This document shows, one piece after another, positions 2,968 through 39,861 of a stretch of 43,280 bases of DNA. The notes beneath the pieces are model-generated. The model made no database searches. It had not been told where the DNA came from and saw only the letters and a list, made by a program, of their open reading frames with translations. Source of the DNA: Pyrinomonadaceae bacterium. Its GTDB lineage: Bacteria > Acidobacteriota > Blastocatellia > Pyrinomonadales > Pyrinomonadaceae. Location: NCBI GenBank assembly GCA_014534425.1, contig JACVRN010000036.1, positions 1-43,280 on the forward strand, given 5' to 3'. Within the stretch, counting starts at the first letter, position 1; the number at the start of each line of letters is the position of its first letter. A program made the translations under genes and the position numbers.

Positions 2968-3063
2968 GATTTAACAGGGATGGATAGGATAGAGAGGATG
3001 AAAGAAAAAGAATTTATTCATTCTCTTCTTTATCCTTTTCATCCTGTCCATCCTGTTTGAATC
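2968..3063. repeat. Long palindromic spacer repeat, ACAGGATRG word family, copy 1
   Basis: Imperfect inverted repeat of about 96 bp. The left arm (2968-3008) and right arm (3024-3063) pair over roughly 36-40 bp. Each arm is made of degenerate words of about 9 bp centred on AGGAT. The ends are conserved with two further copies at 10772-10851 and 39151-39240: TTAACAGGG on the left and CCTGTTTGAATC on the right. It fills most of the oppA1-oppB gap and would fold into a long hairpin in the operon transcript. Confidence 0.85.
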
Positions 3064-10771: not shown

Positions 10772-10851
10772 AATTAACAGGGATGAACAGGATGAATAGG
10801 ATAAAAGAAGAGCTATTGCTTTATCTTTATCCTGTCCATCCTGTTTGAATC
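10772..10851. repeat. Long palindromic spacer repeat, ACAGGATRG word family, copy 2
   Basis: About 80 bp, arms of about 33 bp around AGAGCTATTGCTT. The left end AATTAACAGGG and right end CCTGTTTGAATC match copies 1 and 3, in the same orientation in the window. It sits between the divergent starts of folD and the transglycosylase gene. Confidence 0.85.
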
Positions 10852-37078: not shown

Positions 37079-37090
37079 CAGCTTTGACAA

Positions 37091-37140
37091 ACGTGGTGAG
37101 TTAAGGCGACTTGCGGCCACGAAAAATAATCCGCTAAACA
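37091..37140 (+). ncRNA. SAM-II-like riboswitch aptamer (SAM-alpha)
   Basis: An H-type pseudoknot with the SAM-II layout: P1 CGTGG (37092-37096) with CCACG (37117-37121); P2 GCGG in the loop (37113-37116) with CCGC (37131-37134); between them the TGAGTTAAGG loop segment, an A-rich linker AAAAATAAT, and the conserved GCTAAA (37133-37138) at the 3' side. The order matches known SAM-II RNAs (stem, UGAnUUAA-type loop, UUGC, stem, A-rich linker, GCUAAA). It precedes a methionine-cycle gene. Recognised by eye; covariance scoring would settle it. Confidence 0.82.
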
Positions 37141-37200
37141 GCTCGGCTCGGCCTTCAAGATAAAAGCTTCTGCAAGGCCCCGAAAACTTCAGCTTCCGCA

Positions 37201-39150: not shown

Positions 39151-39240
39151 AATTAACAGGGATGGACAGGATAGAGAGGATAAAGAAAAGACAATACTTC
39201 TTCTTTTATCCTGCTTATCCTGTCCATCCCTGTTTGAATC
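39151..39240. repeat. Long palindromic spacer repeat, ACAGGATRG word family, copy 3
   Basis: The best-preserved copy: arms begin AACAGGGATGGACAGGATA on both strands and pair over about 35 bp with few mismatches. Outer ends AATTAACAGGG and CCTGTTTGAATC match copies 1 and 2. Confidence 0.88.
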
Positions 39241-39264
39241 TACCTTTCATGAGGATAAAAGAGA

Positions 39265-39861
39265 ATGGAAGAGATGTACCTGAAGGACGTTGAGAGTCAT
39301 AAAGCCGAGGGGCCGTACAGTGAGTTGATAGAGCAAGGAAGGAACGCGGGCTTTCCTGTTCCGCAAATCTGGCATCTCTTCGCTTTCAAGCCCAGGGCGA
39401 CGGAGCATCTGGCGCGCTTTACGCAGGAAGTTATGCGCGGGCCTTCGCCGCTTCCCGCAGGGATACGCGAGTTGATTGCGGCCTTCACTTCGCGTCGTAA
39501 CGAGTGTCCCTTTTGAATCGGCTCTCACGCTGCGGTCGCGGCGGAGCTACTCGGAGACCGTCGGCTTGTTCAGGCGGTTCTGGAAGATTACAAGACCTCT
39601 CCGCTCTCGGAAGAGCTTAAAGCGCTCTTCGCCTTCGTAGATAAAGTCAACCGCACTTCTAATCAGATTCGCCAAGGTGATGTTGACGAAGTGAAACGCG
39701 CCGGATGGTCTGACGAAGCCGTCTATGACGCCATCACGGTTTGCAGCCTCTTCAACTTCTACAATCGCTGGATTGACGCCACGGGCGTACAGGACATGCC
39801 CGCCGAAGCATACGAACTGAGCGGCGTACGCATGGCCGAGCACGGTTACATCAGAGAGTAG
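39265..39861 (+). CDS. AhpD-like alkylhydroperoxidase family selenoprotein, in-frame TGA read as selenocysteine
   Basis: Read through the TGA at 39514-39516 the frame gives 198 residues of a complete carboxymuconolactone decarboxylase/AhpD-like protein. Residue 84 is the TGA, inside CPF-U-IGSHAAVAAELL. The AhpD active-site spacing is exact: Glu69, Cys81, Sec84 and His88 match the E-x11-C-x2-C-x3-H pattern, with Sec in place of the resolving-position Cys. Both sides of the TGA are conserved-looking, and the second half (LSEELKALFAFVDKVNRTS, then AVYDAITVCSLFNFYNRW) continues the family fold without another stop. GAGG lies 10 nt before the ATG. A SECIS-like hairpin follows (39521-39547). Alternative: a nonsense-mutated pseudogene, which the hairpin and the exact position make less likely. 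Confidence 0.85.
39521..39547 (+). promoter_or_regulatory. Bacterial SECIS-like hairpin for selenocysteine insertion
   Basis: Upper stem CGCTGC (39528-39533) pairs with GCGGCG (39538-39543) over 6 bp with one G-U. The apical loop is GGTC (39534-39537), 17 nt after the TGA. Lower stem GCTC/GAGC, with a 3-nt TCA bulge on the 5' side. The E. coli fdhF SECIS also has a GGUC loop, 18 nt after its UGA. The Ala-Val-Ala codons of the protein overlap the stem, so part of the hairpin could be coding coincidence. Confidence 0.78.

Follow-up and report, generated by a model that had tools for sequence, protein, structure and literature searches.

The stretch of DNA analysed here (the window) is the 43,280-nucleotide contig JACVRN010000036.1 of the draft assembly GCA_014534425.1, from a Pyrinomonadaceae bacterium of the phylum Acidobacteriota, and it carries a gene whose frame opens with an ATG at 39265, closes with a TAG at 39859-39861 and has a sole in-frame TGA at 39514-39516 (codon 84), with 114 sense codons between that TGA and the stop. 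A plain open reading frame call yields an 83-residue product, exactly the stub that a preliminary description of this DNA had expected from a standard gene call; read through, the same frame would give an AhpD-like protein with selenocysteine (Sec) at residue 84, reading ...NECPFUIGSHAAVAAELL... at the site. The features of the gene are as follows, A2 being the protein alignment of 29 sequences in which Sec and Cys were scored alike at the site.

39251..39254, + strand: possible ribosome-binding site GAGG, 10 nt 5' of the ATG, proposed from the sequence
39265..39861, + strand: predicted AhpD-like / peroxidase-related (TIGR01926) selenoprotein gene, 198 residues counting codon 84 as Sec
39469..39471, + strand: Glu69, invariant in A2 and by spacing the counterpart of Glu118 of M. 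tuberculosis AhpD
39505..39507, + strand: Cys81, first Cys of CxxU, invariant in A2, with TGC or TGT in 55 of 55 TGA rows
39514..39516, + strand: in-frame TGA, predicted Sec84, with TGA at the aligned codon in relatives
39526..39528, + strand: His88 of CxxU-xxx-H, invariant in A2, with the spacing of AhpD His137

Assignment of the protein as AhpD-like is supported, since profile, fold and active-site spacing agree. The read-through protein scores 102.9 bits with NCBIfam TIGR01926 (cut-off 81.8), and both halves taken singly fall under that cut-off, at 24.5 bits for the part before the TGA and 60 bits for the part after it; the Pfam CMD domain PF02627 is matched at 31.9 bits against 23. With NF041238 (AhpD_rel_CFYUT, alkylhydroperoxidase-related (seleno)protein) there is a partial domain match of 41.2 bits, far under the cut-off of 175 for membership. 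The Glu-x11-Cys-x2-Cys(Sec)-x3-His relay is present, Glu69, Cys81, Sec84 and His88 being invariant in A2, and the available text of PMC3141380 gives Glu118, Cys130, Cys133 and His137 as the proton-relay residues of AhpD. The predicted structure model has the AhpD-like all-helical fold, AhpD and peroxidase-related proteins are the top fold and profile matches, and the Cys-type peroxidase-related structures 2prr, 6k40, 3c1l, 2pfx and 2oyo, at 20-25% identity, have Cys where the window protein would have Sec. The earlier claims of an AhpD-family protein, of a TGA in place of the second Cys of CxxC-xxx-H and of a frame running 114 codons further are all borne out, and no second in-frame stop was found.

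Conservation of the TGA is extensive. A scan of a genome collection gave 66 loci, 65 of which reach codon 84, and there the codon is TGA in 55 and TGC or TGT in 10. The 55 TGA relatives are 48-71% identical to the window protein and fall in Acidobacteriota, Myxococcota (Corallococcus, Pyxidicoccus, Citreicoccus and others), Gemmatimonadota and one Planctomycetota metagenome-assembled genome (MAG). At least 112 codons are open past the TGA in 54 of the 55, the exception (L064) having Ns directly after the site and an alignment that ends at residue 93. A second sample of 396 genomes from the window's phylum, drawn separately, contained 14 with a close match (E-value up to 1e-45), namely the window's own genome, nine with one TGA and four without; the aligned codon is TGA in 9 of these 13 relatives (52-67% identity) and Cys in 4, and for none of the 13 do the 210 bases surrounding the site match an earlier locus exactly. 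Over both samples the residue 84 codon is only ever TGA (64 relatives) or Cys (14 relatives), so an in-frame UGA is aligned to the redox Cys of homologues with the downstream frame conserved. A pseudogene, in which the TGA is a true stop put into a broken Cys-type gene by nonsense mutation or sequencing error, would accord with the plain gene call stopping at residue 83, but is scarcely credible when the same TGA recurs in 64 relatives, which speaks against sequencing error in particular, when those relatives show no further stop along the aligned frame, when the frame past the TGA is open in nearly all of the first set, and when the downstream half, whose degeneracy in homologues would by the preliminary description have told against a selenoprotein, is conserved.

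The means of reading UGA as Sec are present in the window's own assembly (5.43 Mb in 323 contigs, 89.8% complete, 3.8% contaminated), which contains selA at 552.2 bits (cut-off 267.9), selB at 387.6 bits (cut-off 242.25), selD at 359.5 bits (cut-off 125) and a tRNA-Sec at 68.8 bits (gathering score 47), called tRNA-SeC with anticodon tca by ARAGORN; a second match to the tRNA-Sec model above gathering, at 51.6 bits, is a tRNA-Ser according to ARAGORN. The selD gene (L084, G000:C129:79390-80310) contains one TGA, in frame within MVSCAGUVAKLAP (CAGU), and is likely a second selenoprotein of this genome. Selenium use by the organism, as earlier proposed together with a search of the rest of the genome for the machinery, is in this way supported. 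Among relatives selB follows the TGA: it is above cut-off in 38 of the 40 TGA genomes searched (of 55 TGA loci) versus 0 of 10 Cys genomes (Fisher 6e-9, kinship uncorrected), and in 9 of 9 TGA versus 1 of 4 Cys genomes in the second sample, making 47 of 49 TGA relatives and 1 of 14 Cys relatives together.

Decoding of the TGA as tryptophan, or its general suppression, might be read from the protein databases, where the aligned residue in the 120 listed homologues of 1144 found is Cys in 74, Trp in 42, Ser in 2 and Arg in 2. Such decoding seems next to impossible given that relatives with a sense codon have Cys, at the redox position, throughout (10 of 10 in the scan, 4 of 4 in the second sample), that the Sec machinery is present and the hairpin described below covaries, and that TGA is the closing stop in 23 of the 56 TGA genes examined (including the L064 frame), so that TGA still terminates genes in these genomes. 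The Trp records, P0009-P0011 included, would most simply be metagenome gene calls made under a TGA=Trp code.

Directly after the TGA lies a candidate selenocysteine insertion sequence (SECIS), its parts being as follows.

39520..39548, + strand: predicted SECIS hairpin, minimum free energy (MFE) fold of -15.7 kcal/mol
39520-39524 with 39544-39548, + strand: outer stem, 5 bp, 67.8% paired over 59 distinct sequences
39525-39527, + strand: bulge
39528-39533 with 39538-39543, + strand: inner stem, 6 bp, 97.7% paired over 59 distinct sequences
39534..39537, + strand: GGUC apical tetraloop, 17 nt past the TGA, its G-C pair becoming A-U (AGUU) in relatives

In E. coli fdhF the TGA-to-loop distance is 18 nt. 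The window hairpin folds as the preliminary description had it, with the GGUC loop at SECIS distance, and satisfies the bacterial SECIS (bSECIS) model set out in the available text of PMC13188914, which has a distance of 16-37 nt, G in the first two apical-loop positions and an MFE of at most -7.5 kcal/mol. Searching the whole window against Rfam at gathering score gave no match at the SECIS, the sole match being a SAM_alpha riboswitch. Folding energy is not decisive taken alone, and the hairpin was therefore assessed by how its codons are conserved, by covariation and against Cys homologues as a control.

The inner stem and loop are encoded by the third base of the His88 codon, which is the first base of the inner stem, and by the codons of residues 89-93. 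Across 55 TGA sequences (the window and 54 relatives) codon entropies at columns 89-93 are 0.31, 0.76, 0.76, 0.36 and 0.67 bits, compared with 0.70 to 2.13 in the 45 remaining conserved columns of four- or six-fold codons (Mann-Whitney p 1.9e-6, taking columns as independent). Both members of the loop-closing pair are synonymous third positions, and the pair is GCG-GTC in 42 of these rows, GCA-GTT in 12 and GCG-GGT in 1 (L063), with no mixed GCG-GTT or GCA-GTC combination among the 55 and with a minimum of 10 changes of pair state on a tree with 17 open forks. Adding the nine sequences of the second sample makes 64 TGA rows, set against 13 Cys rows as control. Loop sequences in the 64 rows are GGTC (46), AGTT (14), GGGC (2), GGGT (1) and CACG (1); the loop-closing pair is present in all 64 versus 2 of 13 Cys rows, and 98.1% of cells of the inner stem and loop pair are paired, the seven pairs being complete in 56 rows and six in the other 8. 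Cells changed on both sides number 24 as against a shuffle mean of 4.3 (24 or more in 0 of 500 shuffles), with slid controls giving no more than 2, the paired third codon positions 15-30, 18-27 and 21-24 co-vary, and L119 retains all seven pairs despite amino-acid-altering changes (CACAGCGGGCGCTGTG). Among the 13 Cys homologues 63.7% of cells pair, which is the shuffled level, and covariation is no greater than in shuffles.

The preliminary description had cautioned that Ala-Val-Ala codons shape part of the hairpin, and one might suppose accordingly that it is an accident of the His-Ala-Ala-Val-Ala-Ala codons, with read-through driven by some other signal. First and second positions of the Ala codons do provide G-C pairs, a control slid by -3 columns still has 80.5% of cells paired, and 4 of 13 Cys rows nevertheless make six of the seven inner pairs. 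An accident is very unlikely all the same, because it is third positions that pair and co-change, and because the Cys homologues, though their peptide is similar, have the 21-24 pair in two rows and covariation no higher than shuffles; the caveat is in this way answered. Synonymous-site covariation and poor formation in Cys homologues thus support the hairpin after the TGA as a SECIS.

A number of observations weigh against the selenoprotein interpretation, besides the partly paired Cys rows just given. The energy of the window hairpin is by itself weak evidence (z-score -1.97, 7 of 200 shuffles folding equally well), and six relatives folded singly have z-scores of -3.35 to +0.34, often no better than shuffles; L063 folds best in a different register, the CACG loop (L122) has no G in the first two positions, and the outer stem is paired in only the 67.8% of cells listed above. 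One TGA genome (L057) is without a selB match at E 1e-30, in another (L001) selB comes as two abutting pieces, each under cut-off, and the Cys genome G021, of the window's own bacterial family, has selB, so that having SelB does not preclude keeping the Cys form. Almost all Cys rows belong to one clade, and the selB association therefore amounts to few independent events. Finally the Sec genes sit on contigs other than the window's, and their link to this gene depends on the grouping of contigs in the draft assembly.

Overall the gene most probably (at roughly 0.96) encodes an AhpD-like (TIGR01926) protein in which TGA84 would be read as Sec by the organism's own SelB and tRNA-Sec with the downstream hairpin, a reading made from sequence comparison. 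Pseudogene, Trp decoding and chance hairpin were rejected on TGA conservation, Sec machinery, and covariation together with the Cys control. On the proposed pathway the ribosome would meet UGA84, SelB carrying Sec-tRNA(Sec) would bind the GGUC loop of the hairpin 17 nt downstream, and Sec would be inserted with translation continuing to the TAG at 39859. Within the predicted all-helical fold Sec84 would then make up the AhpD redox site with Cys81, His88 and Glu69; its selenolate may attack peroxide or another oxidised substrate, and a selenenylsulfide formed with Cys81 would be reset by a cellular dithiol.

The protein would act as a peroxidase. It is possible, albeit less probable, that the protein is a true selenoprotein acting as a thiol oxidoreductase or reductive enzyme on other substrates, such as the debrominase Bmp8, which has the same fold; the top fold and profile matches, to AhpD and peroxidase-related proteins, and the retained Glu-Cys-Cys-His relay spacing argue against it.

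The nearest relatives of the gene by identity, both at 71%, are a planctomycete MAG (L063) and an acidobacterial MAG (L001), a pattern that fits horizontal transfer or patchy loss, and that wrong grouping of contigs in draft genomes could also produce. Sec and Cys on the tree need two changes in total, one of them for a very long branch (L089), and the tree is unrooted, so that it reads equally as Sec to Cys or Cys to Sec. Within the window's bacterial family 51 of 99 genomes have a match at E up to 1e-10, and identity above 40% is found in the own genome and G021 (50%, Cys) only; the remaining matches mostly come from AhpD-like genes that are more distant and have a stop within the matched region. 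Thirty family loci comprise 26 with TGA at codon 84 (one being the window's own copy), 2 with Cys and 2 without a row (L099, L111), and the downstream codons of these TGA loci are in nearly all cases unlike those of the window's group. Distant AhpD-like genes among L090-L116 read, for example, CHYU-IESHAEFLRR and CHYU-IRHHGEALRA after the aligned TGA. From such alignments there seem to be several separate AhpD-like selenoprotein groups within one bacterial family.

The protein records also hold seven proteins of 323-336 residues (P0002-P0008) whose first residue corresponds to residue 95-102, level with the expected SECIS end or just past it, and which continue into another complete domain where Cys occupies the Sec position. 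Judged by their sequences they are probably Sec-AhpD/Cys-AhpD tandems whose N-terminal part through the Sec site was lost to gene callers. A search of 193 genomes, all from one class, turned up no tandem of Sec and Cys domains; 11 of the 193 have a match at E up to 1e-60, each single-domain with TGA (four TGAs in G573). The wider proposal, that the window gene is part of a Sec-AhpD lineage that spans at least four phyla and is for the most part mis-annotated, partly horizontal in its spread, with catalytic-helix codons doubling as the SECIS and with an offshoot (P0002-P0008) joining Sec-AhpD and Cys-AhpD in one chain, is evenly balanced and could prove right or wrong.

The type of protein is already known, as the preliminary description had said. 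The available text of a 2026 review (PMC13188914) lists in its selenoprotein table an 'AhpD-like protein, TIGR01926, CxxU', which shares profile family and CxxU site with the window gene, with credit to reference 59 of the review, which is apparently PMC1088965 on the Sargasso Sea; in the available parts of that paper AhpD-like is COG2128, and hairpins after the TGA are reported. By description AhpD-like 2 of the GOS set (pfam02627, CxxU), as the accessible text of PMC2398784 gives it, resembles the window protein in CMD domain and CxxU, and is commoner in non-marine samples. A text search of PMC13188914 returned no occurrence of Acidobacteri-, Myxococc- or soil, and in the open-licence literature no paper was found naming this family in Acidobacteriota or Myxococcota. 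Available portions of PMC1794560 give 4 selenoproteins of 3 families for Acidobacteria, and those of PMC12013277 give 3 known selenoprotein genes for the acidobacterium Occallatibacter riparius; these counts could include this family.

Upstream of the gene lie two further features.

37083-37158: SAM_alpha riboswitch RF00521, 40.1 bits
37241-39139: bifunctional homocysteine S-methyltransferase/methylenetetrahydrofolate reductase gene (NF006396)

The riboswitch stands immediately upstream of the NF006396 gene. Between genes, a palindrome built on ATCCTGTCCATCC recurs at 2978-3053, 10781-10841 and 39155-39234, the last lying between the methyltransferase/reductase gene and the selenoprotein gene, and 10 of 11 ATCCTGTCCATCC matches fall within the three sites (chance expectation 0.53). 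Comparison of gene neighbours across loci showed none kept beside the selenoprotein gene throughout the set, and among the neighbour clusters listed none contained a window frame. An MFS-type transporter frame, named by eye, adjoins the gene on the same strand in 16 loci (for example L013, L045, L049 and L059), the 10 TGA loci among them having it downstream and the 6 Cys loci upstream; 8 loci of myxobacteria have an alpha/beta-hydrolase-like frame next to the gene, and long frames from 19 loci form a further cluster, at scattered distances and on both strands.

The gain for the organism is one of corrected annotation, a 198-residue redox enzyme being restored in place of an 83-residue stub and a well-supported member being added to a listed selenoprotein family. 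For the family, Trp in 42 of the 120 listed homologues, where DNA relatives have TGA, is likely a systematic error, and the SECIS offers a signature for recovering the lineage, its core being CGCCGCGGTCGCGGCG in 34 of 64 rows and CGCCGCAGTTGCGGCG in 11 of 64. Sec forms, mostly with selB, and Cys forms, mostly without, make a natural set for addressing the benefit of Sec in the AhpD site, and in the P0002-P0008 chain, if it is as proposed, selenolate and thiol sites would act in tandem.
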